Below, one piece after another: positions 7,671-19,953 of a DNA stretch of 31,818 bases (the stretch's first letter is position 1; every line of letters begins with the position of its first letter). Source of the stretch: a virus; the IMG/VR virus record IMGVR_UViG_3300035670_000881, positions 1 to 31,818 of that record. One strand, written 5' to 3'. A model generated the notes under the pieces. That model saw only the letters and a program-made list of their open reading frames with translations, was not told where the DNA came from and ran no database searches. The translations under genes were made by a program, and so were the position numbers.

Positions 7671-7829
7671 TTAGGGTAGCACCTCGAGTCGGTACCGCCG
7701 CTCAGCGATGTTGAGTGCGGTGAGTTGCGCTTGCGCTTGCTCGCGGGTAGGGTGGCAGCCCATCACGCGACCATCGTCGTCTTTGATGACGCAGTATTGG
7801 TTCCGGCGGTTGACGATCGAGTACGGCAT
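7671..7829 (-). CDS. Small phage protein (52 aa) upstream of terminase
   Basis: A short real gene: 52 codons starting MPYSIVNRRNQYCVIKDDDG and ending IAERRYRLEVLP, then TAA. The ribosome site GAGGAG sits five bases before ATG. The pattern with Tyr-Cys-Val, Asp/Glu turn, CHPTREQAQAQLTALN is one I recall from small proteins or protein ends near terminase and portal genes in many phages; its function is unknown. The hydrophobic pattern suggests a tiny beta-beta-alpha fold. It is the first gene after the late leader region and would be the first translated on the late transcript. Confidence 0.8.
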   Translation of the reverse strand: MPYSIVNRRNQYCVIKDDDGRVMGCHPTREQAQAQLTALNIAERRYRLEVLP

Positions 7830-7853: not shown

Positions 7854-7881
7854 GAGTGCCAGCGGTTTCCCGCTGGCACTC
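7854..7881 (-). promoter_or_regulatory. 12-bp hairpin with GAAA tetraloop in late leader
   Basis: GAGTGCCAGCGG pairs perfectly with CCGCTGGCACTC; on the minus-strand RNA the loop is GAAA, a stable GNRA-type tetraloop. It ends about 25 bases upstream of the ATG of the 52-aa gene. There is no U-run after it, so it is unlikely to be an intrinsic terminator. A role in mRNA stability, translation control or packaging-site recognition is inference. Confidence 0.65.
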
Positions 7882-10414: not shown

Positions 10415-11329
10415 TTAGTCGAGGGTGATGCTGTCGAGGGGTGTGAGGCCGTCGCGGAGGCTTCGGCGTGGGGTGGTTGTACCAGGTTGCGTGTCGTTGG
10501 TGGTGAGGAGTTTGCGGATGTAGGGGATGGGGTGGGTGATGGTGGCGCCTGCTTCGATGACGGTGCGGATGGCGAGTTCGGTTCTGTGGTCGGTGTTGGT
10601 GCGGGCGAGGTTGAGGAGTTGTTCGGCGATGCTGGCGAAGGCGGTGGGTTTCCAGTCGTAGATCGATTGGAGGTCGGTGAGGGCTGCCCAGACGCGGGGG
10701 TGCTGCTGAGAGAGGAGGCTGCCGGCGTTGCGGGTGGCGCGGCGTCGTTCGGCTGCTTGTAGGGCGTGTCGGACTTCTGGGTCATCCCCTAGGCTTGTCA
10801 TTCCCGGCGTGTCGGTTGCGGTGAGGTTCGCGGGTTCCGGGGGGGTAGGGGGGGTTTTAGGTTCAATGTCTATTCCATGACTATTCTCGGTAGGTCTGTG
10901 GGGACCCCATGGGGTTCTGTGTGAACCGGGGGGGGTTCCCTGTGAACCCCATGGGGTTCTGTGTGAACCGGGGGGGGTTCTGTGTGAACCCCCTACCTGG
11001 TCTTCTGCAGTTTGCTCGACATGCGTGACTTTCGCGGCTTTCTTGCCTGGAGTCGCAAGGCGGTATGCGTTGCTGATCTGCCTGTTGTCCTCGTAGCGCT
11101 TCTGCTTCTCGACGATGAAGCCGAACTTCAGGAGTTCGTCGATGGCGCGTTTCACGCTGGATCTGCTGAGATGCGTTTGCCGTTCGATGGTGGAGTGCTT
11201 GGGCCAGGTGATGCCAGTCTCGTCGTTCGCGTATGAGGCGAGCAGCAAGAGGACATGGCAGCTGGTTGGGCTGAGGTCACAGTCTTCCTCAATAAGCTGC
11301 TTGACGTGCTCGGTCATCTTGTACCCCAT
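10415..11329 (-). CDS. Helix-turn-helix replication initiator (O-like)
   Basis: 304 aa. Residues 1-85 form a winged-helix domain of the phage replisome-organiser/Rep type (DLSPTSCHVLLLLASYANDE, ITWPKHSTIERQTHLSRSSVKRAIDELLKFGFI). Residues about 113-150 are a seven-residue repeat, GSHRTP(P/W), encoded by the 21-bp tandem repeats. The C-terminal half is helical and may recruit a host helicase or loader. The start is fixed by AAAGGAGGTGATC directly before ATG, a 13-base match to the 16S rRNA 3' end. Upstream open frame to 12115 is shadow. As in lambda O, an origin within the initiator gene is likely. No helicase or polymerase gene is seen, so host machinery would be used. Confidence 0.8.
   Translation of the reverse strand: MGYKMTEHVKQLIEEDCDLSPTSCHVLLLLASYANDETGITWPKHSTIERQTHLSRSSVKRAIDELLKFGFIVEKQKRYEDNRQISNAYRLATPGKKAAKVTHVEQTAEDQVGGSHRTPPGSHRTPWGSQGTPPGSHRTPWGPHRPTENSHGIDIEPKTPPTPPEPANLTATDTPGMTSLGDDPEVRHALQAAERRRATRNAGSLLSQQHPRVWAALTDLQSIYDWKPTAFASIAEQLLNLARTNTDHRTELAIRTVIEAGATITHPIPYIRKLLTTNDTQPGTTTPRRSLRDGLTPLDSITLD
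10890..10994. repeat. Five 21-bp tandem repeats (iteron-like, putative origin)
   Basis: Four good copies and one degenerate copy with exact 21-bp spacing; the GAACC element falls at about 10902 (as GGACC), 10923, 10944, 10965 and 10986. The core is GGGGTTCTGTGTGAACC, itself an inverted repeat (GGTTC-n5-GAACC). G-runs of eight separate some copies. Just left of the array (about 10854-10889) is an AT-rich stretch unusual for this GC-rich genome. Repeats plus AT-rich DNA inside an initiator gene is the classic lambda-type origin arrangement. Confidence 0.7.
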
Positions 11330-11342
11330 GATCACCTCCTTT
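11330..11342 (-). promoter_or_regulatory. Exceptionally strong ribosome binding site of initiator gene
   Basis: On the minus strand AAAGGAGGTGATC sits immediately before ATG 11329 with five bases between GGAGG and ATG. It matches the complement of the 16S rRNA 3' end over 13 bases, far longer than the other sites in the window. It decides the start of the initiator gene. Confidence 0.85.
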
Positions 11343-11365
11343 GGGTGGTGTGCTATTCTTGTTGT

Positions 11366-11389
11366 GTCGGGGTCACCTCCTTCCCCGAC
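11366..11389 (-). promoter_or_regulatory. Hairpin presenting an SD sequence in its loop
   Basis: GTCGGGG and CCCCGAC pair perfectly; on the minus-strand RNA the ten-base loop is exactly AAGGAGGTGA. No ATG, GTG or TTG follows at a usable distance, and the initiator gene has its own site about 25-45 bases downstream. It may be a ribosome standby site or a titratable decoy. Confidence 0.55.
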
Positions 11390-11415
11390 CGACGTGGGTG
11401 CTTGACCAGCAGTGG

Positions 11416-11443
11416 GATCGGCGGAGTGTGGGCTCCGCCGATC
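11416..11443 (-). promoter_or_regulatory. 11-bp hairpin with CCCACA loop after the membrane peptide gene
   Basis: GATCGGCGGAG pairs perfectly with CTCCGCCGATC; read on the minus strand the loop is CCCACA, the same as in plus-strand leader hairpins at 17128 and 17450. It begins two bases after the stop codon of the 32-aa gene and lies upstream of the initiator. No T-run follows on the minus strand, so it is probably an RNA element and not a simple terminator. Confidence 0.6.
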
Positions 11444-11445
11444 TC

Positions 11446-11544
11446 TTATTGGTCGTTGGTGATGAGGTCGCTGATCCAGGCGCCGAGGGTGCCGATCAGG
11501 GTGATGGTGAGGATGATGCCGGCGATGAGGAGGGTGGGGGTCAT
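11446..11544 (-). CDS. 32-aa single-pass membrane peptide
   Basis: A very short gene: MTPTLLIAGIILTITLIGT then LGAWISDLITNDQ, almost entirely one hydrophobic helix. AAGGAG five bases before the ATG and an ATGA overlap with the Xre-family gene make it credible despite its size. It would insert in the cytoplasmic membrane. The role is unknown; peptides of this kind next to repressors can act as exclusion factors or anti-repressors, but nothing here proves that. A much longer frame upstream is a shadow and was excluded. Confidence 0.65.
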   Translation of the reverse strand: MTPTLLIAGIILTITLIGTLGAWISDLITNDQ

Positions 11545-11744
11545 TCGATCTCCTTGAGGGCTTGCTCGACGGGGATGCCGAGGACTTCGGCGAGTTTGCG
11601 GACGGTCTTCGTGTTTGGGCGGACGTGTCCGTTTTCCCAGTAGCTGATGATGGTGCGGCTGACTCCGAGTTGGTTGGCGAGTTGGTTCTGGTCGATGCGG
11701 TGTAGGGCGCGGTGCATGCGGATGCGGGCTGCGAGTTGGTCCAT
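11541..11744 (-). CDS. Xre-family transcriptional repressor
   Basis: 67 aa from ATG 11744 with AGGAGG five bases upstream. It is a bare lambda-Cro/C1-type helix-turn-helix: MDQLAARIRMHRALHRIDQ, NQLANQLGVSRTIISYWENG (recognition helix about residues 29-40), RPNTKTVRKLAEVLGIPVEQ. It lacks a C-terminal protease or dimerisation domain, so it is Cro-like in size. It is divergently transcribed from the plus-strand early operon, with a palindrome (11776-11790) in the shared promoter region that is its natural candidate operator. It probably controls the choice between the two transcripts. Confidence 0.9.
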   Translation of the reverse strand: MDQLAARIRMHRALHRIDQNQLANQLGVSRTIISYWENGHVRPNTKTVRKLAEVLGIPVEQALKEIE

Positions 11745-11762
11745 GCGTGCCTCCTGGTCGTG

Positions 11763-11791
11763 AGTGTACCTGGTCTGCACGTTGCGTGCAA
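11763..11791 (-). promoter_or_regulatory. Promoter for the Xre/replication operon
   Basis: On the minus strand: -35 TTGCAC (11786-11791), 17-base spacer, -10 TACACT (11763-11768). The predicted start is near 11755, giving a very short leader with AGGAGG almost at the 5' end. The -35 overlaps the palindrome at 11776-11790, so autoregulation by the Xre protein is likely. Confidence 0.65.
11776..11790. promoter_or_regulatory. Operator-like palindrome between divergent promoters
   Basis: TGCACGTTGCGTGCA is a perfect inverted repeat with a three-base centre. It lies between the -35 boxes of the two divergent promoters and overlaps the one for the Xre gene. Size and place fit the binding site of a Cro-sized dimer. 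Confidence 0.6.
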
Positions 11792-11795
11792 CGGG

Positions 11796-11824
11796 TTGAC
11801 GGTCTGGCGCGAGGGGTGTAGACT
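11796..11824 (+). promoter_or_regulatory. Sigma-70 type promoter of plus-strand early operon
   Basis: TTGACG (11796-11801), a 17-base spacer and TAGACT (11819-11824). This is the clearest promoter in the window. Transcription should start near 11831, right at a small CCGCG/CGCGG hairpin and just before the AAGGAGG of the first gene. Confidence 0.8.
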
Positions 11825-11831
11825 TCTCGTA

Positions 11832-11847
11832 CCGCGCCCATACGCGG
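11832..11847 (+). promoter_or_regulatory. 5' leader hairpin with CCCATA loop
   Basis: CCGCG and CGCGG enclose CCCATA. The stem starts eight bases after the -10 box, so at the 5' end of the mRNA, and is followed at once by CAAGGAGG. It belongs with the CCCACA-loop leader hairpins. Confidence 0.55.
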
Positions 11848-11860
11848 CAAGGAGGTCATC

Positions 11861-12025
11861 GTGTTGGAGTTCGATCGGTCGACGGAAGCGCCTTTCACGC
11901 TCGCGCAGTGCGGCGAGTGCGATGAGGGGTGCGAGTTCTGCAATCGCGGGTGGGATCTCCTGCCCGTCTGCACGCTCGAGGAGCTCGTGCAGCTGCTCGG
12001 TAGCGACCCGGAGGTGCTGTCGTGA
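11861..12025 (+). CDS. 54-aa Cys-rich protein, first gene of early operon
   Basis: Starts at GTG with AAGGAGGTCATC immediately upstream, an excellent ribosome site. The protein begins MLEFDRSTEAPFTLAQ and holds five cysteines, C17-x2-C20-x3-C24-x2-C27 and C37, so it probably binds zinc. The acidic C-terminus (CTLEELVQLLGSDPEVLS) is helical. It ends TGA overlapping the GTG of the next gene. As the promoter-proximal early gene it may be a regulator or host-interaction factor, but I do not recognise the family. Confidence 0.75.
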   Translation: MLEFDRSTEAPFTLAQCGECDEGCEFCNRGWDLLPVCTLEELVQLLGSDPEVLS

Positions 12026-12303
12026 GTGACGCGCAGAAGGCCGAACGTCTTGTCGAGGCCGAGAAGCAGCTCGCCGAGCTTTCCTCGAACGGGTTGACGT
12101 ATCAGGGGGAACCATACGTCACTCACGGCGATGCGCTCAATCTGCTTCGCATCGTTCTCAAGGTGAGCGAAGGCGGCGCGGCGCACTACGTGCGTGCCGC
12201 TCGCAACGAAGATCAGCTGCGGAGCTATCAGGTTCATCCTCGCGCTCGCTTGTACCCCAGTGTCGACGTTCTTGCGCTTCTGAGGAAGGTGGCTAATGAG
12301 TGA
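12022..12303 (+). CDS. Hypothetical early protein
   Basis: 93 aa starting at GTG (GTGA overlap with the 54-aa gene) and overlapping the RecT-like gene by eight bases. Helical N-terminus (AQKAERLVEAEKQLAELSS), then a Tyr-rich middle and a C-terminal helix (VDVLALLRKVANE). No family recognised. Its tight coupling with the annealing protein suggests co-expression and perhaps a role in recombination, which is inference. Confidence 0.65.
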   Translation: MSDAQKAERLVEAEKQLAELSSNGLTYQGEPYVTHGDALNLLRIVLKVSEGGAAHYVRAARNEDQLRSYQVHPRARLYPSVDVLALLRKVANE

Positions 12304-13174
12304 TCTGGTGAAGTCGGATGCTCGGCAACTCGTTCGGAACATCGACGATCTCGCGCGCGTCAGCAAACTCCTCGCCGACAGCGGGTACTTCACGGATGCG
12401 CGTGATGCCGCGCAATGCGGCGTGAAGGTCCTCGCCGGGTTGGAGATGGGCATCGGTGCGTTCTCGAGCATGGCGGGCATTCACGTCATCAAGGGGAAGC
12501 CGTCGATCGGCGCCGGCTTGATGGCCGCCGCCGTGAAGCGCAGCGGGAAGTACAACTACCGCGTGACGAAGCACACGGCGACGGAGTGCGTGATCGATTT
12601 CTTCGAGCGTGGCGAAGCGTGCGGTACCAGCAGCTTCAGCATGGATGACGCGAAAGCTGCTGGTCTCGTGAACAACGACAACTGGAAACGAGCGCCTCGC
12701 AACATGCTCTTCGCGCGCGCGCTCAGCAACGGCGTCCGGTGGTACTGCCCGGATGTCTTCGACGTGAGCACGTACGTTCCGGAGGAGCTCGGCGCGGATG
12801 TCGACGAGGAAGGCAACTTGGTGCGGGTGCCTGCCGCGGCTGCGCCGGCGAAGGTCGCGATCGAACCGGCACCAGCGGCTCCTGCTGCTCCCGTCGAGGC
12901 GATCGAGGATGCCGAAGTCCTCCCGGAGCCGATCACGCAGGAGCAGATCACGCTGATCATGCAGGTCTTCAAGGCTGCCGGCATCGACGTTCGCACGAAG
13001 GCTGGTAAGGAGCAAGCGAGCGATCTCCTGAGCCACGTGCTCGAGCAGCCGATCACGACGATGAAGGGCATGACGGCGATCGAGGCTGGCGCGTTCCTCA
13101 CCGCGTTCCTGACGGCCGACGGTGTGGTCGATGAGGATGAGGTGCGCGCGATCGTGCTGGAGATCGGCGCGTGA
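12296..13174 (+). CDS. RecT-like single-strand annealing protein
   Basis: 292 aa. Residues 1-165 match a phage family often labelled RecT or recombinase: LARVSKLLADSGYFTDARDAAQ, KVLAGLEMGIGAFSSMAGIH, VIKGKPSIGAGLMAAAVKR, then KRAPRNMLFARALSNGVRWYC. A Pro/Ala-rich linker (about residues 178-205) leads to a C-terminal helical domain (QEQITLIMQVFKAAGID, ASDLLSHVLEQPITTMKGM) that may contact SSB or other partners. Such proteins pair single strands during phage replication and repair. No partner exonuclease (RecE, lambda-Exo or YqaJ type) is recognisable beside it. Acidic C-terminal tail (VVDEDEVRAIVLEIGA). The family call is from memory of the pattern. Confidence 0.72.
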   Translation: MSDLVKSDARQLVRNIDDLARVSKLLADSGYFTDARDAAQCGVKVLAGLEMGIGAFSSMAGIHVIKGKPSIGAGLMAAAVKRSGKYNYRVTKHTATECVIDFFERGEACGTSSFSMDDAKAAGLVNNDNWKRAPRNMLFARALSNGVRWYCPDVFDVSTYVPEELGADVDEEGNLVRVPAAAAPAKVAIEPAPAAPAAPVEAIEDAEVLPEPITQEQITLIMQVFKAAGIDVRTKAGKEQASDLLSHVLEQPITTMKGMTAIEAGAFLTAFLTADGVVDEDEVRAIVLEIGA

Positions 13175-13395
13175 GCATCCGGCAGGCGCTCGGGATGGAC
13201 ACGACCGTGTTCACGATCGGGGAGGCCAGCGACATCGTCGCTGGCTCCCTCAACATGACGACGCTGGAGGCGCGCGCGATTCTCGATGTCGAAACCGAGG
13301 AGCGGAGCCTGTTCAGCATGACGGATGGTGTCGACGTGTGGATCTTCCGCGTCGACTTGTACGCCTGGCTCGATCTTCAGGAGGGTGTCGCATGA
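13171..13395 (+). CDS. Hypothetical early protein
   Basis: 74 aa from GTG 13171, overlapping the RecT-like stop (GTGA). The middle has a helix-turn-helix-like pattern (FTIGEASDIVAGSLNMTTLEA), followed by VETEERSLFSMTDGVDVWI, and could be a small DNA-binding adaptor. No firm family. Coupled by ATGA to the following gene. Confidence 0.6.
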   Translation: MSIRQALGMDTTVFTIGEASDIVAGSLNMTTLEARAILDVETEERSLFSMTDGVDVWIFRVDLYAWLDLQEGVA

Positions 13396-13808
13396 CGAAC
13401 TGGTCGCAGGAGATCATGAATCACGCGCTCGAGTTGAATCATCCGATCGCGTTCGCGACTCGCGCGCATCACCTCGCTCGTCGCGTCGCGGAGGTTGGGC
13501 GCGCGAAGTGGACGACGGACGCTGGCACGCTTGTCGATCCGGCGGAGGTCGAGCCGTTGTTGCAGGCGTACTCGAGCCTTCAGATCGCGGCGACGGATGA
13601 GTACCTGAACGAGAGCGAGTGGGAGGGTGTGCAGGGTGCGCCGTCGCGGTTGCAGACGTTGACGTTCTTGCGGGATTGCTTCAAGCATGCGCAGTGGCAG
13701 ATCGAGACGACGTTGATCGCTTCGAAGCCGGCGGCGGTGCTTGTCGACGTGAATGGCGAGCTGCAGGTGCTGATCGCTCAGTTGGAGGAAGCATGCAAGG
13801 AAGCGTGA
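13392..13808 (+). CDS. Hypothetical early protein
   Basis: 138 aa, mainly helical (HALELNHPIAFATRAHHLARR, LQTLTFLRDCFKHAQW, LQVLIAQLEEACKEA). ATG 13392 overlaps the preceding stop (ATGA). No motif that I recognise. It follows the RecT-like gene by one gene, so a recombination role is possible, but it has no visible nuclease acidic cluster. The longer frame upstream of this ATG is shadow of the RecT-like gene. Confidence 0.65.
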   Translation: MTNWSQEIMNHALELNHPIAFATRAHHLARRVAEVGRAKWTTDAGTLVDPAEVEPLLQAYSSLQIAATDEYLNESEWEGVQGAPSRLQTLTFLRDCFKHAQWQIETTLIASKPAAVLVDVNGELQVLIAQLEEACKEA

Positions 13809-14014
13809 TGCAGGAGTCCCTGGGGGTGCTGGCGTTGTTCAGCGTGTGGAACCTGCTGATTCTGTTGGCGATCTGGCGGGTGTCGGTTCGTGCTGTGGAG
13901 CGTGCGCGGCGGGATGCGATCGTTCAGACCGCGAGTGCGTACGCTGCGCAGATCGCTTCGAAGCCGCCGAGGAAGCCACGCGAGAAGAAGGAGACGAATG
14001 ATGCTGCAGCATGA
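13793..14014 (+). CDS. Small single-pass membrane protein
   Basis: 73 aa from ATG 13793; ATG 13808 or GTG 13805 in the same frame are also possible and would give about 68-69 aa. GGAGGA precedes the first, AAGGA the others. One hydrophobic helix (LGVLALFSVWNLLILLAIW) is followed by a positively charged helix and a Lys/Arg-rich tail (KPPRKPREKKETND), so the C-terminus is probably cytoplasmic. Function unknown. Confidence 0.65.
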   Translation: MQGSVMQESLGVLALFSVWNLLILLAIWRVSVRAVERARRDAIVQTASAYAAQIASKPPRKPREKKETNDAAA

Positions 14015-14783
14015 GTACGCCATCGAACTGTCCACGCTCTACAACGTGCGATGCGCCAAGTGCCTCGACGTCGAGAACAGCGTGAATCTCTCTCGCGTGA
14101 TCACGAACCAGAGCAAGGTGCTTACCGTGCGTCTCGAGTTCGACTGCCCGTCTTGCGACGCCACGACCGTCGTGAACTTCGTGCATGCCGGGAATCCGAC
14201 CGTTGTCCAGTATTTCTGGGTTCCTGGTACTGCGTCGGATCGCTACGCCACCGTTCATTCCAGACCCGAATACCCGATCGGTCATGGTTGGCGCAATAAG
14301 CCAGCCGAAGGCACCCCAGCCGTCGTCGCACCCGAACCTGTCGTCGCTCGCGAATCCGAAGCGGAGCGGCGCGAGAAGCAACAGCAGATCGAGCGGACCG
14401 CGAATGCCCTCGAAGCGCATCGCAAGATCGCAGAACTGGTGCTTTCCAAACGACGCAGCAAGCTAGCCTTTGCCAATCGCAGCACGGTTGTTGGTCGACT
14501 CGCTAAACTTCGTGAGCAATGGGTTTGGGCTGTTGATGCCAGCAATCCCGCGATCGAGGAGATCCTGAACGATCACGGTGGCAAGCTAATCATCGGCAAA
14601 CTCTGGGAAGATCTGAAGCTGATTGCGACGACTCAGAAAAAGCATCACAGGGGAGGAGTGGCCGCTCAGAGGACGTTCTCTGTCACGCTCGGTAGCCGAG
14701 CCCAAGTGTGGTGCTACCTGTTCCCGGCAAAATCCCTCGAGGATGCCCGCAAAGGCGTGCTTCAGATCGGATCGATGTTCTGA
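13998..14783 (+). CDS. Zinc-ribbon protein of unknown function
   Basis: 261 aa from the first of two adjacent ATGs; AAGGAG lies four bases upstream. The N-terminus has a zinc-ribbon pattern, C19-x2-C22 and C50-x2-C53, with beta strands between. A charged coiled coil follows (about 115-150, EAERREKQQQIERTANALE), then a mixed C-terminal domain ending VLQIGSMF. No catalytic motif recognised. The next gene starts inside its stop (TGATG). A nucleic-acid-binding role is plausible from the ribbon and the basic character. Confidence 0.7.
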   Translation: MMLQHEYAIELSTLYNVRCAKCLDVENSVNLSRVITNQSKVLTVRLEFDCPSCDATTVVNFVHAGNPTVVQYFWVPGTASDRYATVHSRPEYPIGHGWRNKPAEGTPAVVAPEPVVARESEAERREKQQQIERTANALEAHRKIAELVLSKRRSKLAFANRSTVVGRLAKLREQWVWAVDASNPAIEEILNDHGGKLIIGKLWEDLKLIATTQKKHHRGGVAAQRTFSVTLGSRAQVWCYLFPAKSLEDARKGVLQIGSMF

Positions 14784-15436
14784 TGAGCCTGAAGCGCTTG
14801 AACCTTCGCATTCGCGCCCACGATGCCCTCCGCGTCGCACTCGCCATCCGCACCATCGGCGACAAGCACGCCAGCATCAACGTCCTCTTCGACAAGGCCG
14901 GCAACCCGACCGAGCTCTTCAACAGCGACAACTACTGCGTCGCGTACGTCCCACTCGCCGATCACCTGGTCGAGTGGGACGCCCAGCCGGTCAGCAGCAT
15001 GAAGTTCTGGGTGACCCTCAACCGGTACCCGGCGAAGCCGATCGGGGATGCTGAACTTCGCATCGAAGCTGAACCCGATCCGGAAGCTGTCCCGTTCGGA
15101 CGACTCATGATCGACAACTTCCCGATCGGCACTCTCGCTCACGCTGGCAACGACGCGATGGCAGGCGTACGCAATGTCGTACCAGTGAACCTCGAGCAGC
15201 TGCCCATCGCGCCACCATCCGGGATGGACGTCCTGCACGTCGCCAGCATCCTGAAGCACGCGAGGAAGCCACCCGCTCGCGCGATGCCCGTCGTCCTCCC
15301 TGGTGGCGGGTACGCGTTCCACTACGCCCTCGACGACGGCGGGGAGTTCATCATGGTGAGCCTTCGTGGTCCCGACGATGAGATGAAACGCTTCGATGCG
15401 ATCGTTCGCACCGTTCGCGAGAAAGCACCCTTCTGA
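14783..15436 (+). CDS. Hypothetical early protein
   Basis: 217 aa, alpha/beta composition, starting MSLKRLNLRIRAHDALRVAL. The start shares one base with the previous stop (TGATG), and the same arrangement links it to the next gene. Notable segments are FDKAGNPTELFNSDNYCVAYV, DVLHVASILKHARKPP and a C-terminal MVSLRGPDDEMKRFDAIV. No family recognised. Codons here end more often in C than in neighbouring genes, hinting at a different origin or expression level. Confidence 0.7.
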   Translation: MSLKRLNLRIRAHDALRVALAIRTIGDKHASINVLFDKAGNPTELFNSDNYCVAYVPLADHLVEWDAQPVSSMKFWVTLNRYPAKPIGDAELRIEAEPDPEAVPFGRLMIDNFPIGTLAHAGNDAMAGVRNVVPVNLEQLPIAPPSGMDVLHVASILKHARKPPARAMPVVLPGGGYAFHYALDDGGEFIMVSLRGPDDEMKRFDAIVRTVREKAPF

Positions 15437-15927
15437 TGACGCGAGCGGATTGGGATCGCATCGCGTTGTACCTCCCGGAACGCGCAGAGGGTGCCGTCGT
15501 GGAACGCGAAGCACTCTGGTTCGAGTTGATTCTCAGCCTCGCGGACGTCACTGAGATCGCGATGGTCGCGGGTCGTTCGAAGAACAAGGCGCATCTCCTG
15601 AGCCTCGTTGATGCGTGCGATCAGTTAGCAGCCGCCGCGATCGACATGCTATTGCAGGGCTTCTACAAGGAGATCGAGCAGGTGCGGGAGTTGATCGAGA
15701 CGGAGAATCAACGCTCCGCGATTCGGCACGGGTCACCAGCCGAGCGGACCGAGAGCCTCCTGACGCTGCTGCTCGTCCTCACCGAGGAGGTCGGCGAAGT
15801 CGCTGAAGCGGTGCAGATCGACAAGAGTTGGCGGACGTGGAAAGTCGCCGATGAGCTGGTGCAGGTCGCATCGGTGACTTGCACGATCCGAGCGATTGCT
15901 CGAGCGCGATCGGGCGTGAACGCATGA
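15436..15927 (+). CDS. MazG-like NTP pyrophosphohydrolase-type protein
   Basis: 163 aa, all helical. The C-terminal 65 residues carry the MazG-superfamily pattern LTEEVGEVAEAVQIDKSW (E-E-x-x-E) followed by VADELVQVASVTCTIRAIAR, which supplies the second E in a shortened form of the usual E-x-x-D helix. Such enzymes hydrolyse non-canonical or excess nucleoside triphosphates, and phage versions may also act on (p)ppGpp signalling. The missing Asp of the second motif makes activity uncertain. The N-terminal 90 residues are an additional helical segment. TGATG overlap with the gene before, ATGA with the gene after. Confidence 0.65.
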   Translation: MTRADWDRIALYLPERAEGAVVEREALWFELILSLADVTEIAMVAGRSKNKAHLLSLVDACDQLAAAAIDMLLQGFYKEIEQVRELIETENQRSAIRHGSPAERTESLLTLLLVLTEEVGEVAEAVQIDKSWRTWKVADELVQVASVTCTIRAIARARSGVNA

Positions 15928-16121
15928 CCTCGTACCGTGGTCGCGATCGGGGTGATGGCGAGGAGCTGCTGAAGGTCATCGTGACGCTTCCGAAGAGCAT
16001 CCTGACGGAACTCGACATCGTCGTCACGCACTACAAGCAGGAGACGCGGAGTTTCAATCGGAGTGCTCTCATTCAGGAGGCTCTGTCGCTGTACCTGGAG
16101 GGTCTGAATGATGAGCGGTAG
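15924..16121 (+). CDS. Ribbon-helix-helix DNA-binding protein
   Basis: 65 aa. A short basic start (MTSYRGRDRGDGEELLK) leads to the ribbon strand KVIVTLPKSI and two helices, LTELDIVVTHYKQET and NRSALIQEALSLYLEGL, the CopG/Arc arrangement. Such proteins bind operators as dimers. Start fixed by ATGA overlap with the MazG-like gene. The two palindromes near early promoters (11776-11790 and 16783-16801) are candidate targets, but this is inference. Confidence 0.8.
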   Translation: MTSYRGRDRGDGEELLKVIVTLPKSILTELDIVVTHYKQETRSFNRSALIQEALSLYLEGLNDER

Positions 16122-16344
16122 GGATGTCGTGCTGACGCATGAGGGCGTGTCTTACGTGCCGGCGGATGAGGCGATCTTGCGGGTTCGTCGCGCAAGCGGG
16201 TTGTCGATCGCGGGTGCTTACCGGCGGATCGCGATGGCGCGCTCGAGGGGACTGGTGCGGACGATCCTCGTGAGCAAGAAGCAGCGTTGGTTCAGTGTCG
16301 ATGACTTGGCGACTTTGATCGCTGGCATCAAGGAGGAAGCATGA
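16108..16344 (+). CDS. Small helix-turn-helix-like protein
   Basis: 78 aa from ATG 16108 or 16111, with GGAGGG upstream, overlapping the ribbon-helix-helix gene by 14 bases. The middle (ILRVRRASGLSIAGAYRRIAM then ARSRGLVRTILVSKKQRWFSV) looks like a winged helix-turn-helix of MerR/excisionase size with a basic wing. A role as regulator or recombination directionality factor is possible, yet no integrase is visible in the window. Overlaps the next gene by ATGA. Confidence 0.6.
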   Translation: MMSGRDVVLTHEGVSYVPADEAILRVRRASGLSIAGAYRRIAMARSRGLVRTILVSKKQRWFSVDDLATLIAGIKEEA

Positions 16345-16709
16345 AGACTTTCGTGATGAGTGTCGTTGTGGCGTTCGGGTTCGCGTTCGGGATGAGCAGC
16401 CCAGATCAGGCGTACGTGACTGGCTTCGCGAGCGTGATCGCGAGTGAAGCGGATTGGGTGATGACGGAGTGCCCTGAGGGTCTCGACGTGCCGGTGATCG
16501 CGTGCGTGTTCGGGAGCGGGAATCAGGAGCTCGACAAGATGATCTTGGATTTGTACGTGCCTCGGTACGCTGAGTGGTTGGTGCCGTGGGTGCGGTCGAG
16601 TGAGATGGCGATTGGGCGGATGATGTCGACGGGGATCGGGGAGATGCACGTGATGAGTTTCGAGGTGAGTCCGTTCGTGACGCTGGTGTTCTTCTGGAAA
16701 AAGTTCTAG
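16341..16709 (+). CDS. Exported or membrane-anchored hypothetical protein
   Basis: 122 aa. The N-terminus (MKTFVMSVVVAFGFAFGMSS) is a typical signal peptide, with possible cleavage after residue 18-24. The mature part is acidic with two Cys (TECPEGLDVPVIACVFGSG) that may form a disulfide outside the cytoplasm, and ends in aromatic/hydrophobic VTLVFFWKKF. AAGGAGGAAGC before ATG and an ATGA overlap support the start. Last gene of the first early operon, followed by a terminator. A host-envelope role, for example exclusion, is inference. Confidence 0.65.
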   Translation: MKTFVMSVVVAFGFAFGMSSPDQAYVTGFASVIASEADWVMTECPEGLDVPVIACVFGSGNQELDKMILDLYVPRYAEWLVPWVRSSEMAIGRMMSTGIGEMHVMSFEVSPFVTLVFFWKKF

Positions 16710-16730
16710 CGGCTGCTGGTGTTCGATCTG

Positions 16731-16765
16731 ATCCCGTCGGGTTCGCTCGACGGGATTGTTCTTTT
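16731..16765 (+). terminator. Intrinsic terminator of the first plus-strand operon
   Basis: ATCCCGTCG and CGACGGGAT form a perfect nine-bp stem with an eight-base loop, followed by TGTTCTTTT. It stands 22 bases after the stop of the exported protein gene and before the next promoter. Confidence 0.85.
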
Positions 16766-16782
16766 GGGGATAACCCGCCGGG

Positions 16783-16814
16783 AGTTGACACGGCGTCAAC
16801 TACGGGTTTAGAAT
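16783..16814 (+). promoter_or_regulatory. Promoter with palindromic operator over the -35 box
   Basis: TTGACA (16785-16790), an 18-base spacer and TAGAAT (16809-16814) form a strong sigma-70 type promoter. The -35 lies inside AGTTGACACGGCGTCAACT, seven-base inverted arms around ACGGC (16783-16801). A repressor bound there would block the promoter. It starts the second plus-strand operon. Confidence 0.8.
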
Positions 16815-16823
16815 GCCTTCATC

Positions 16824-16850
16824 AGCGGGATCACCCACACCCTGCCCGCT
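16824..16850 (+). promoter_or_regulatory. 5' leader hairpin with CCCACA in the loop
   Basis: AGCGGG and CCCGCT pair around a 15-base loop that contains CCCACA. It begins nine bases after the -10 box, near the transcript 5' end, and is followed directly by GCAAGGAG of the first gene. Confidence 0.5.
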
Positions 16851-16864
16851 GCAAGGAGACGAGC

Positions 16865-17119
16865 ATGAGCACCATCTTCGACACCACCCCGACCACCAGC
16901 ATCGACCACACCATCTGGAAGAAGTTCAACGAGTACACCTACGTCACCCCCGAGGAAGTCCTCGCCGCTCACGGCAACGACATCTCCACCGTCATCTTCG
17001 CCGCCCTCATGAACGACAACACCGCCGACCTCCTCAACGACATCGCTGACCAGCACCACTGCGAACCCAGCGACATCCTCCGCAGCATCAGCCGCACCCT
17101 CCACGCCGCCCGCGCCTGA
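16865..17119 (+). CDS. Hypothetical protein, first gene of second early operon
   Basis: 84 aa, acidic and helical (DHTIWKKFNEYTYVTPEEVL, NDISTVIFAALMNDNTADLL, CEPSDILRSISRTLHAA). AAGGAG upstream of ATG. Codons end almost always in C, stronger than in the structural genes, which suggests high expression or a different origin. No family recognised. A CCCACA-loop hairpin both precedes and follows it. Confidence 0.7.
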   Translation: MSTIFDTTPTTSIDHTIWKKFNEYTYVTPEEVLAAHGNDISTVIFAALMNDNTADLLNDIADQHHCEPSDILRSISRTLHAARA

Positions 17120-17127
17120 ACCCCCCC

Positions 17128-17153
17128 GCCCCGGCAGCCCACACTGCCGGGGC
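17128..17153 (+). promoter_or_regulatory. Intergenic 10-bp hairpin with CCCACA loop
   Basis: GCCCCGGCAG and CTGCCGGGGC enclose CCCACA. It starts eight bases after a stop codon and ends 21 bases before the next ATG, with CACAAGGAGG following. No T-run follows. The surrounding 55-base intergene is similar to that at 17442-17495. Confidence 0.75.
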
Positions 17154-17174
17154 ACCCCCACAAGGAGGCACGCA

Positions 17175-17441
17175 ATGAGCTCGAAGACGAAGACCATCAA
17201 GGTGATCGTGTACCCGGACGGCAGCACCTCGTCCATCACCCGCAGCAGCCGCGGCTGGGCGTGGTACCCGCCCCGCAGCGGGAAGCACGAGAGCAGCGAC
17301 CTCCAGGGCGTGGCTAGCAACGCCGCGCAGTACGGTGGCAAGATCGAGATCCGCCCGAACCCGTACTACCGCGAACCCACCGGCATGGAAGTCCTGCAAG
17401 CCGCCCTGACCAAAGCCTTCTCCCCGACCCGCCGCCGCTGA
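17175..17441 (+). CDS. Hypothetical small basic protein
   Basis: 88 aa, beginning MSSKTKTIKVIVYPDGSTSS and ending TKAFSPTRRR. Beta-strand-rich N-terminus (KVIVYPDG, GWAWYPPRSG), then a short helical C-terminus (MEVLQAALTKAF). AAGGAGG before ATG. No recognised domain. It is flanked by two related intergenic hairpins, so its expression may be tuned separately from the genes on either side. Confidence 0.7.
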   Translation: MSSKTKTIKVIVYPDGSTSSITRSSRGWAWYPPRSGKHESSDLQGVASNAAQYGGKIEIRPNPYYREPTGMEVLQAALTKAFSPTRRR

Positions 17442-17449
17442 ACCCACTC

Positions 17450-17476
17450 GCCCCGCCGACCCACAATCGGCGGGGC
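17450..17476 (+). promoter_or_regulatory. Second intergenic 10-bp hairpin with CCCACAA loop
   Basis: GCCCCGCCGA and TCGGCGGGGC enclose CCCACAA. Same distance from the stop codon (eight bases) and same relation to the next AAGGAG as the hairpin at 17128. The stems differ by several base changes while pairing is kept, which argues for a conserved structure. Confidence 0.75.
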
Positions 17477-17495
17477 ACACTCATAAGGAGACGAC

Positions 17496-17942
17496 ATGCC
17501 CACCTGCCCGAACGCACCCGCTCGCGAGATCGAGCACCAGACGCGACTCACCCGCATCCGCGAGTTCATCGAACTCGCGAACCACAAGAACGACCCCGAA
17601 GCCCACCGCAAAGCGCAATGGGTCCTCCACCGCATGAACGGCATCGCACTCTTCGGCGTCTACCCCTACCAGTACAAGGAAGCCGAAACCGTCTGGAACT
17701 TCGCGATCGAGTTCCTCAGCGGCCGCCGCGATCGGAACGCCCTCGAACGCATCAACGACCTCCACCCCATCGACGCCGCGATCGACATCGCGTACGACCT
17801 CCACACGAACGCACCCCTCAAGCACTTCATGCAGCACGAACGCGACGTGCCCGAAGCGTTCCTCGTCGACCTCTTCATCAACATCACCCGCATTCGCGAC
17901 CTTGAACGCGAGAAGATCATCACCCTGGAGGAACAAGAATGA
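17496..17942 (+). CDS. Hypothetical helical protein
   Basis: 148 aa, mostly helix (QTRLTRIREFIELANHKND, AHRKAQWVLHRMNG, ALERINDLHPIDAAIDIAYDL). AAGGAG precedes ATG. The His-rich middle (HPIDAA, YDLHTNAPLKHFMQHERD) is notable but does not match a known metal site. No family recognised. Its stop overlaps the start of the lipoprotein gene (ATGA), so the two are co-translated. Confidence 0.7.
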   Translation: MPTCPNAPAREIEHQTRLTRIREFIELANHKNDPEAHRKAQWVLHRMNGIALFGVYPYQYKEAETVWNFAIEFLSGRRDRNALERINDLHPIDAAIDIAYDLHTNAPLKHFMQHERDVPEAFLVDLFINITRIRDLEREKIITLEEQE

Positions 17943-18319
17943 ACCGCATCGCCGCGCTCGCCACCATCCTGATCGCCAGCCTCACCCTCACCGCCTGCAA
18001 CGAAGTGACCGTCAACTGGATTCCCGAACTCGTCTGGAATGAGAGCGTGTACGCCGGCGAGTGCCACGTCGACATCGCGATTCAACCGAGCGCTCGCGTG
18101 CACTTCATCCTCACGAACTGCAAACCAGGAACTCGCGGTTGGCTGCACCTCGAAGGCGGCATTCATCCCCTCAGCGCTCGCCCATTCATCTGGAGCCCGA
18201 ACCCGCGCCGCATCCAGAATCAGTACTGGGTTCGCGTGAACCTCACTGACGGCAGAACCGATCCGAAAACGAGCGGTGAACCCGTCGAGTTCATCGGGAT
18301 GCTCTACTACACCTGGTAA
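17939..18319 (+). CDS. Small lipoprotein
   Basis: 126 aa with a lipoprotein signal: MNRIAALATILIASLTLTAC, lipobox LTAC, giving a lipidated Cys20. The mature part (VTVNWIPELVWNE, CHVDIAIQPSARVHFIL, CKPGTRGWLHLEGG) is a beta-rich domain of about 105 aa with two further Cys that may pair. Many temperate and lytic phages express small lipoproteins early to exclude other phages, which would fit its place in an early operon far from the lysin. It is less likely an o-spanin because of that distance. Confidence 0.78.
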   Translation: MNRIAALATILIASLTLTACNEVTVNWIPELVWNESVYAGECHVDIAIQPSARVHFILTNCKPGTRGWLHLEGGIHPLSARPFIWSPNPRRIQNQYWVRVNLTDGRTDPKTSGEPVEFIGMLYYTW

Positions 18320-18334
18320 CGCTCAGGATCCACG

Positions 18335-18372
18335 AGGACGCCCTCGGCGCTAGTCGAGGGCGTCCTTCCTTT
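18335..18372 (+). terminator. Terminator of the second plus-strand operon
   Basis: AGGACGCCCTC pairs with GAGGGCGTCCT (11 bp, ten-base loop), followed by TCCTTT on the plus strand. It lies between the lipoprotein gene and the convergent XF1762-family gene and may stop both, though the minus strand has no T-run. Confidence 0.75.
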
Positions 18373-18913
18373 ACTGCTCTTCGAACAACGGGAACACCGC
18401 CTGAGCGCGACCAGGTAACTCTATTTCGCCTGGCGGCATGAGATTCAGCGTCTTGACCCATCGCGTTTTGTCACCACTCGGCTGATCGGTTCTTCGCGGC
18501 TTGCCGTCAGTATGTTTCCACTGCCTGCCTCGAGCGATCGCCTCCATTGACCAACCAGCCGCTCTGAGGCTCGTCCCTGCTTCTTCCTCCAGGATGTACG
18601 TTTGGATTTTGCCGTAACCGAGTTGCTTCCCGATCCTGGCGGCGGCACCGTAGAGCATCGAGCAGGCGTTCGGGGTTCCATCCGTCGCGAGCCTCGTGAC
18701 TTCAAGAACCTGCCTTGGGTGACCAGCCAATCTAGCCACGGGACGTCCAATCACGGCTACGCCTCGAAGATTGTTTTGCTCGTCGATGATGCCGATGCTG
18801 AATCGATGACCCAGGACTGGCTTGTGGTGACGATGGAATCTGCCGACGAACTCGTTCGCCTCCGTAAGTTCGACTGGGATGATCGTCAATCTGATCGCGT
18901 TACCCGGCTTCAT
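18371..18913 (-). CDS. XF1762-family (GNAT-like) phage protein
   Basis: 180 aa. The pattern matches a protein family widespread in phages: VELTEANEFVGRFHRHHKPV, GHRFSIGIID, LRGVAVIGRPVARL, EVTRLATDGTPNACSMLYGAA, GYGKIQTYILEEEAGTSLRAAGW. The fold is that of GNAT acyltransferases but the substrate is unknown. Length is normal. The C-terminus (RQWKHTDGKPRRTDQ, RWVKTLNL) is basic. Upstream GGAAGG is a moderate ribosome site. It lies alone on the minus strand between two terminators, convergent with the lipoprotein operon, so it probably has its own weak promoter. Confidence 0.85.
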   Translation of the reverse strand: MKPGNAIRLTIIPVELTEANEFVGRFHRHHKPVLGHRFSIGIIDEQNNLRGVAVIGRPVARLAGHPRQVLEVTRLATDGTPNACSMLYGAAARIGKQLGYGKIQTYILEEEAGTSLRAAGWSMEAIARGRQWKHTDGKPRRTDQPSGDKTRWVKTLNLMPPGEIELPGRAQAVFPLFEEQ

Positions 18914-18953
18914 GCCTGCCGCCTTCCGACATCAACAATGCGTGAGATAAGCG

Positions 18954-18979
18954 AACACCCCCGGTCGCCCGGGGGTGTT
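18954..18979 (-). terminator. Hairpin terminator after the 71-aa gene
   Basis: AACACCCCCGG and CCGGGGGTGTT form an 11-bp stem; on the minus strand the loop is GCGA, a GNRA-type tetraloop, and the stem is followed by TTCGCTTATCT in part. It lies 21 bases after the stop of the minus-strand 71-aa gene and upstream of the XF1762-family gene. The plus strand shows TTTCACTT after the stem, so it may act on that strand too. Confidence 0.65.
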
Positions 18980-19000
18980 TCACTTCGTCCTCGAGCGCGA

Positions 19001-19216
19001 TCAGCGTCGCCAGTCACCACCCGGATCGAACCGCGGATTCTCCTGCAGGAAACCGACACGCGCGAACGACCGCGCCTCGACGCGCTTCCGCATCGCGAGA
19101 ACCCGCAACCAATCCGGCTTCGATTCATCACGAGCGACAGCCTCGAGTCGCTGAGCGACCCGCACGAGTTCGACGGGAGAAAGGCGCGACAGGGGAGAGT
19201 ACGGAAGTCGTTTCAT
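19001..19216 (-). CDS. Hypothetical 71-aa basic protein
   Basis: Starts at ATG 19216 with GGAGG four bases upstream (MKRLPYSPLSRLSPVELVR). Strongly basic and helical (VAQRLEAVARDESKPDWLRVL, MRKRVEARSFARVGFL), ending FDPGGDWRR. I do not recognise a family. It has its own leader: TAGAAT at 19257-19262 on the minus strand, then a CCCACA-loop hairpin, then the ribosome site. A hairpin terminator follows. It is thus an independent unit of one gene. Confidence 0.7.
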   Translation of the reverse strand: MKRLPYSPLSRLSPVELVRVAQRLEAVARDESKPDWLRVLAMRKRVEARSFARVGFLQENPRFDPGGDWRR

Positions 19217-19226
19217 GCTGCCTCCA

Positions 19227-19262
19227 GATCCGCGTGTGGGCACGGGATCGATTCGCATTCTA
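19227..19262 (-). promoter_or_regulatory. -10 box and CCCACA-loop leader hairpin of the 71-aa gene
   Basis: On the minus strand TAGAAT (19257-19262) is followed after seven bases by GATCCCGTG-CCCACA-CGCGGATC (19249-19227), which pairs with one bulge and one G-T. The ribosome site TGGAGG follows directly. No good -35 is visible. Same architecture as the leaders at 11832 and 16824. Confidence 0.55.
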
Positions 19263-19271
19263 CGAGTGACG

Positions 19272-19284
19272 TACCATCAAGTGG
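19272..19284 (+). promoter_or_regulatory. Possible leaderless promoter of the glycosyltransferase gene
   Basis: TACCAT lies exactly seven bases before ATG 19285 and there is no ribosome site in between (CAAGTGG only), which fits a leaderless transcript starting at the ATG. It overlaps divergently with the promoter of the 71-aa gene. The 14-base stretch around it (GTACCATCAAGTGG) recurs imperfectly (GTACCATCTAAGGG) right after the gene. Confidence 0.45.
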
Positions 19285-19953
19285 ATGAGAGCACCCACTG
19301 CCGTCATGATCAGTCACGTCAGCCGCGGGTACGCTGGCGGACTCCGCGATCAAAGCCTCGCCGCGCTCGCGACCGCTGGCATCACCCCAACCGTCATTGT
19401 CAGCACCCGCATTCCCGGCACCGACACTGAAGTGAAGCGCGTCGCATGGCACGCGATTCACCACGGAGCGAACCACCCCGACGGACTCCTGTTCTTCGAG
19501 GACGACATCACCGTCGACGCGAGCATGATGCGAGCCGCGCTTAGCTTGGACTATGGCGATCACGACCTCGTCACCTTCTGCCTGCTACGCCGCACGCTCC
19601 TGCCGGCAGCTCACCAGGATCGGTACAGCAACGGTGGCGCATCGTACGTCGTCCCGATCGGACGGGAAGCGTGGCGTGATGACAAGCGCGGATTCCACGG
19701 CAGCATGGGACTCTGGCTCAGTCCCACCCTCGTCAGTCGCGCCATCAGCCTGAAGCACGAGTTCATGACACCCACCGGTGAACCGATCACGAGTCCGATG
19801 ACGCCCGCCGAGGAAACGCGCGGGAAACCATGCGGTTTCGACTTCTGGCTCAGAGATCGAGCACTCAATCCCGCGACGGTCATGCCGAACCCGATCGGTC
19901 ACCGAACCGATCAAGCGAGCACCATCAAGGTTGCGAGGAAGTTCCGAGCGTAG
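19285..19953 (+). CDS. Glycosyltransferase-like protein (moron-type gene)
   Basis: 222 aa. GT-A-like features are the N-terminal strand TAVMISHVSRGYAGGLRDQS, AGITPTVIVSTRIPG, and the DXD-type motif LLFFEDDITVD (residues 69-78), with later GGASYVVPIGREAWRDD and CGFDFWLRDRAL segments. It would transfer a sugar from a nucleotide sugar with a metal ion. It lies alone on the plus strand between minus-strand genes with its own promoter and terminator, like a moron. It resembles the second glycosyltransferase (22073-22870) in length and in the EDDI motif. The target (virion, DNA or host surface) is unknown. Confidence 0.75.
   Translation: MRAPTAVMISHVSRGYAGGLRDQSLAALATAGITPTVIVSTRIPGTDTEVKRVAWHAIHHGANHPDGLLFFEDDITVDASMMRAALSLDYGDHDLVTFCLLRRTLLPAAHQDRYSNGGASYVVPIGREAWRDDKRGFHGSMGLWLSPTLVSRAISLKHEFMTPTGEPITSPMTPAEETRGKPCGFDFWLRDRALNPATVMPNPIGHRTDQASTIKVARKFRA

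Follow-up and report, generated by a model that had tools for sequence, protein, structure and literature searches.

Hairpins with a constant CCCACA loop and differing stems lie ahead of six gene sites in a tailed phage

Introduction

Cluster K mycobacteriophages carry start-associated sequences (SAS), a constant, asymmetric 13-base sequence, GGGATAGGAGCCC, which stands at gene starts with up to two deviations. Extended start-associated sequences (ESAS), found next to SAS, consist of conserved 17-bp imperfect inverted-repeat arms around a variable spacer, and the function of both was unknown when they were first described (PMC3203893). Here we analyse six hairpins with a CCCACA loop in IMG/VR virus record IMGVR_UViG_3300035670_000881; "the window" is this whole record, 31,818 nt. 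Like SAS and ESAS, the hairpins are dispersed along a phage genome, always in one orientation and just ahead of a gene start, and ESAS also contain an inverted repeat. A sequence-only reading of the window had compared the hairpins with SAS. The likeness holds for position, but the constant and variable parts are reversed relative to the mycobacteriophage elements (PMC3203893): in this phage the arms vary around a constant loop, and three copies stand where mRNAs are predicted to start. We did not see GGGATAGGAGCCC in the upstream regions here, as judged by reading, with no separate pattern scan. Nor are there conserved arms around a variable spacer here, since it is the centre that stays fixed and the arms that differ from copy to copy. 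As this inverts the mycobacteriophage pattern, the CCCACA hairpins are not members of the SAS or ESAS families.

Hairpins near mRNA 5' ends offer a second comparison. In Escherichia coli such a hairpin impedes RppH and stabilises the mRNA, and 5' hairpins also stabilise mRNAs of Bacillus subtilis (PMC3997798). Stem-loops of the ompA/papA type, at or near the mRNA 5' end (PMC3997798), resemble the elements described here in that three of the latter would, by their predicted starts, also stand near a 5' end and leave a free Shine-Dalgarno sequence (SD) downstream. The reviewed examples, however, are single-gene leaders. We know of no set of 5' stabilising hairpins that uses one loop across several leaders, nor of one that includes two intercistronic copies. 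A third comparison is with the translational operators of phage RNA-binding repressors, such as that of T4 DNA polymerase gp43. This operator, too, is a hairpin that precedes a start codon, and its loop letters, UAAC in T4 and RB69, are kept between phages (PMC3014915). Unlike the present element, though, it is one operator per autoregulated gene; the window has six dispersed copies with a different loop, the SD lies outside the hairpin, and a binder is conjectural.

Results and Discussion

Anatomy of the six copies

Three of the hairpins have long, perfect stems. Copy 1 (11416-11443, minus strand) pairs GATCGGCGGAG with CTCCGCCGATC around CCCACA over 11 bp (RNA fold z -5.1). It stands 2 nt past the stop codon of a 32-amino-acid (aa) membrane-like open reading frame (ORF) and, as had been proposed, about 75 nt upstream of the SD in the leader of a replication-initiator gene. 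Copy 4 (17128-17153, plus; GCCCCGGCAG-CCCACA-CTGCCGGGGC; z -4.0) and copy 5 (17450-17476, plus; GCCCCGCCGA-CCCACAA-TCGGCGGGGC; z -4.4) each have 10 bp. Both are intergenic, exactly 8 nt past a stop codon and 8 nt before an SD (AAGGAGG and AAGGAG, respectively), and they have the outer stem bases GCCCCG...CGGGGC in common. Near copy 4, a second CCCACA, unpaired, adjoins the SD at 17157.

The other three are weaker. Copy 2 (11832-11847, plus; CCGCG-CCCATA-CGCGG) has 5 bp and scores 22.6 bits, with a shuffle z of +0.4. Copy 3 (16823-16851, for a site at 16824-16850, plus; CAGCGGG-ATCACCCACACCCTG-CCCGCTG; z -1.4) has 7 bp and carries CCCACA in the middle of a 15-nt loop, which makes it the weakest of the six. 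Copy 6 (19227-19249, minus; GATCC-CGTG-CCCA-CACG-C-GGATC; 23.1 bits, z -1.6) can be drawn with 5 bp around a CCCACA loop or, under the energy model, with 9 bp, one bulged C and a CCCA loop. These three copies follow one layout: a -10-like hexamer, 7-9 nt, the hairpin, a single base, the SD (AAGGAGG, AAGGAG and GGAGG, respectively) and the start codon.

Thus the six sites that the sequence-only reading had listed are all present, on the strands it gave, and its claim that five of them end just before an SD was correct (1, 1, 1, 8 and 8 nt before AAGGAG(G) or GGAGG). Its description of one shared loop on differing, paired stems also stands for the family, although copy 3 proved weaker than had been claimed. 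Every copy (6/6) lies on the coding strand of its neighbouring genes, in the sense direction and ahead of genes. Five copies keep a loop of the form CCCA-[CT]-A while each inner stem pair changes, a feature of phage translational operator hairpins.

Non-randomness and pairing

To what genome do these counts refer? Head and tail genes (TerL, portal, major head protein, tape measure) identify a tailed phage. A second contig, IMGVR_UViG_3300034073_004063 (24,048 bases), has 99.9% identity to both window ends and bridges the gap between them with 4,142 bases. The genome is circular or circularly permuted, with about 35,960 bases in the window plus the bridging contig, and "extended coordinates" below continue the window across the bridging 4,142 bases. 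The bridging contig itself breaks in replication-origin repeats near 10,938. A TerL scan of prokaryote genome contigs, aimed at the host, gave no match.

In this genome of about 36 kb, a perfect stem of at least 8 bp capped by a 6-7-nt loop occurs just four times, and three of these hairpins have the loop CCCACA(A). Three hairpins (at least 7 bp) sharing any one loop appeared in 1 of 1,500 dinucleotide shuffles. CCCACA occurs at 12 sites on the two strands; 6 of the 12 fall within 60 nt upstream of gene starts in the sense direction, regions that make up 4.3% of the sequence (binomial 4e-6, approximate since the gene-start list was curated by hand), and none falls in the antisense regions of gene starts. 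We then aligned five copies, removing one loop A of copy 5 for register. All 25 cells were paired (25/25) and both sides changed at all five inner pairs, as the sequence-only reading had expected of covarying stems; slid pairings gave 28-50% paired. As an alignment of sites within one genome, it shows sequence-independent pairing, not evolutionary history. Could the resemblance nevertheless be due to chance? Copies 2, 3 and 6 would not convince alone. However, the shared loop of three in four long hairpins, the single success in 1,500 shuffles and the fully paired alignment already contradict chance for the three long copies, and we regard it as scarcely credible.

Two other candidates were set aside. 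A further paired CCCACA at 10902 (minus) is a degenerate replication-origin iteron and so is not a leader hairpin. Also excluded, as unsafe, was a weak copy (4 bp, loop CCCAC) that coincides with the GTG start at 33585 in extended coordinates.

Strand, arms and termination

At none of the six copies is the stem followed by a sense-strand U-tract (a T-run in the DNA). This absence speaks against ordinary intrinsic terminators or attenuators, a very improbable account of the family. Copy 1 was indeed flagged as terminator-like on the opposite (plus) strand, owing to TCTTATT, but there is no evident plus-strand gene upstream of it.

We also considered action at the level of DNA. An inverted repeat with a fixed 6-bp centre could serve a repressor or an Xer-like enzyme as operator or recombination site. 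Copy 1, with its 11-bp arms and 6-bp centre, resembles tyrosine-recombinase sites in geometry, and three copies lie at predicted transcription starts. Yet the arms, the part that such proteins read, are variable; no promoter is evident for copies 4 and 5; and orientation tracks transcription in all six cases. We consider a DNA site improbable.

Predicted promoters, leaders and operon layout

Copy 2 follows the predicted promoter of an early rightward operon, TTGACG-17-TAGACT (11796-11824, plus; 9/12 in the promoter scan), and copy 3 follows a predicted promoter TTGACA-18-TAGAAT (16785-16814, plus; 11/12). Copy 6 begins 7 nt past a TAGAAT hexamer upstream of which no -35 is recognisable. The claim that three copies start 7-9 nt past a -10 box therefore holds for the hexamer spacing (11832, 16824 and 19227), but the last of these is without a -35. 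These promoter calls are consensus matches alone, and the two matches, for copies 2 and 3, about equal the number in shuffles (mean 1.5, sd 1.3). If transcription starts 7 nt past the -10, the stems of copies 2, 3 and 6 would lie 1-3 nt from the predicted +1, and each of these hairpins would belong to a minimal 5' leader. A 5'-terminal position does not apply to copies 4 and 5. Copy 2 would begin at about +2 of the early transcript, with the AAGGAGG of the gene at 11861 next to it, and copy 3 at about +3 of its own.

Two inverted repeats overlap predicted promoters. One, AGTTGAC-ACGGC-GTCAACT (16783-16801), lies at the promoter of copy 3; the other, GTTGCACGCAACGTGC (about 11775-11795), is near a helix-turn-helix gene. 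Each is a candidate repressor operator.

Copies 4 and 5 are intercistronic, inside the operon that begins with copy 3 (16865-18319). Behind copy 3 is an 84-aa ORF with no assigned function (16865-17119, plus); behind copy 4, an 88-aa ORF with weak DUF6330 similarity, below the Pfam cut-off (17175-17441, plus); and behind copy 5, a 148-aa ORF with no assigned function (17496-17942, plus). An intrinsic-terminator-like hairpin closes the operon (18335-18366, plus). The hairpin is not universal among gene starts: none precedes the repressor-like gene at 11744 or the gene at 19285. The latter (plus) is a candidate leaderless gene, in which TACCAT ends 7 nt before the ATG, without an SD (19270-19287).

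This layout bears on antitermination. Proteins of the lambda N type bind loop-specific hairpins, and the copies might be nut/boxB- or put-like sites at phage transcript starts: several stand at predicted operon starts. However, copies 2, 3 and 6 leave no space for a boxA ahead of the hairpin, two more copies inside an operon that already starts with copy 3 would be redundant, and the intrinsic-terminator-like hairpins are found where operons end rather than immediately past the elements. An antitermination role is about as improbable as a DNA site.

A second class of hairpins before genes

Do other strong hairpins of this phage occupy similar positions? The nine longest perfect hairpins of the whole genome (at least 9 bp) comprise three terminator-like ones (16731, 18335 and 19984), CCCACA copies 1, 4 and 5, and three with GNRA loops. 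The first of the GNRA class (7854-7881, minus; GAAA loop, 12 bp) lies before the GAGGAG of a 52-aa ORF (7671-7829). The second (18954-18979, minus; GCGA loop, 11 bp) is directly past a stop codon and upstream of a Mom-like gene, on the same strand as copy 6 and downstream of copy 6's gene. The third (33624-33649 in extended coordinates, minus; GAAA loop) is intergenic and precedes a gene. Like the CCCACA copies, all three are sense-strand hairpins before genes, with 11-12 bp and no U-tract; they differ in having a GAAA or GCGA tetraloop. Since GNRA hairpins occupy the same type of position, the job of the stem is probably a general one, such as 5'-end protection or insulation of the ribosome site. 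The CCCACA loop marks a subset in the early/middle region, 11.4-19.3 kb.

Search for relatives and further copies

The sequence-only reading had looked to the missing part of the genome and to related phages for further copies, and none was found. The bridging 4,142 bases hold no further long CCCACA hairpin, and neither the 80 capsid-related loci nor the pattern scans yielded one. A blastn search against 50,697 phages returned no relative of the region, near or distant. IMG/VR protein scans with TerL, portal, RecT-like, gene-B and gene-C proteins recovered only the same phage (3300034073_004063) or distant loci without the element. No Rfam family matched the window above the gathering cut-off.

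Our pattern scans covered AG/CT-closed or GGGG-stemmed variants only, so their negative outcome is partial. The scan of viral contigs for AGCCCACACTSSS..AAGGAG gave 13 matches, none with a stem of more than 4 bp, and that for CCCACA..GGGG..AAGGAGG gave 90, of which 80 were examined and none was convincing. Among 80 matches in genome contigs, one, in a Chloroflexales metagenome-assembled genome (L257), had an 11-bp stem and an SD: at 210-262 a CCCACA-loop hairpin is followed, at a distance of about 10 nt, by AAAGGAG and an ATG. A pattern search found no second convincing copy in that genome, and we read this hairpin as a coincidence. The element thus appears to be confined to this phage or, at the least, not to extend to genomes as distant as those sampled.

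What the stem and the loop may do

The proposal that the family is an RNA element accords with a constant loop on changing, paired stems before ribosome binding sites, three of them at predicted mRNA 5' ends. We favour, at about an even chance, the view that these are sense-strand RNA hairpins of leaders and gene gaps, whose stem shields the message and insulates the ribosome site and whose CCCACA loop is in addition read by a trans-acting factor. In three predicted transcripts the stem would close the 5' end, 1-3 nt from +1, with the SD left free one base beyond it; the copies inside the operon at 16865-18319 would separate independently initiated genes. Most probably the stem would hinder 5'-end-dependent decay and keep the ribosome site from being covered by folded upstream sequence. 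A single factor could recognise the loop and tune the six early/middle sites together; it might be an RNA, or an RNA-binding protein of phage or host origin. The transcript starts, the protection and any binding factor we infer.

Why invoke a factor at all? Protection by a 5' stem accounts for the stems and their spacing as well as for the GNRA hairpins, but it leaves a constant CCCACA on changing stems unexplained. GNRA loops serve the same type of position elsewhere while six early/middle sites keep CCCACA, and for that reason we suppose that something reads the loop. A shared reader would explain why CCCACA is kept across several operons, as for the loop of the T4 gp43 operator (PMC3014915). 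In its strongest form, the hairpins would be a post-transcriptional regulon of the phage, in which one phage or hijacked-host RNA-binding factor reads the six loops and switches translation or stability together, ignoring the GNRA class, mainly of late-gene leaders. We regard that form as possible but doubtful.

Several observations weigh against the favoured reading. Copies 2, 3 and 6 are weak alone by their shuffle z scores, and in copy 3 CCCACA is not closed into a hexaloop. A long stretch separates copy 1 from its SD. One operon contains both copies 4 and 5, which have outer stem bases in common, so that their likeness may partly reflect duplication. No RNA-binding protein was recognised among the genes tested, a subset of all genes, and none of the 12 CCCACA/TGTGGG sites offered a non-coding candidate for a phage small RNA with UGUGGG that could pair with the loop. 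Finally, a CCCACA-loop hairpin of at least 7 bp is absent from the 80 capsid-gene loci and other loci (1.36 Mb, mostly capsid-related phage DNA); because the loci sampled included no close relative covering the region, absence from other genomes is a weak test.

Perhaps, then, the hairpins are structural spacers only, and the loop is a relic of duplication from one ancestral element, whose stems later drifted with compensation, or was kept since a loop of C and A alone does not pair with the SD? GNRA hairpins in equivalent positions make the loop look exchangeable, the common stem bases and 8-nt spacings of copies 4 and 5 suit duplication, and the lack of a recognised RNA-binding protein among the genes tested points the same way. 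On the other hand, nearly every stem pair changes from copy to copy and yet the loop stays constant across unlinked operons of both strands, which is contrary to neutral drift after duplication. We consider a purely structural role a real possibility, though short of even; an inherited and merely tolerated loop ranks close behind the shared-reader explanation.

Should a factor indeed read the loop, the hairpins would form a compact regulon acting at the RNA level, in a layout comparable to that of SAS and ESAS but with a clear structural signature (constant loop, covarying stem, one-base SD spacing) that makes the element directly testable. Even if they are purely structural, this tailed phage has fitted separate translation units with a hairpin in their leaders.

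Neighbouring features

The gene downstream of the GCGA hairpin (18371-18913, minus) encodes a Mom-like/XF1762-family protein (phrog_1384, NF045478) and is a possible DNA-modification gene.

The replication-initiator region downstream of copy 1 has features of its own. Inside the O-like initiator gene lie five iterons that recur every 21 bp (GGTTCACACAGAACC, the spacers alternating between CCCCCC and CCATGG; 10890-10985, minus), an array that is probably a lambda-type origin. In the leader of the gene (11330-11390, minus), two near-perfect complements of the anti-SD stand in tandem. The first (AAGGAGGTGA) is in the loop of a GTCGGGG/CCCCGAC hairpin and has no start codon at the usual spacing; the second precedes an ATG.

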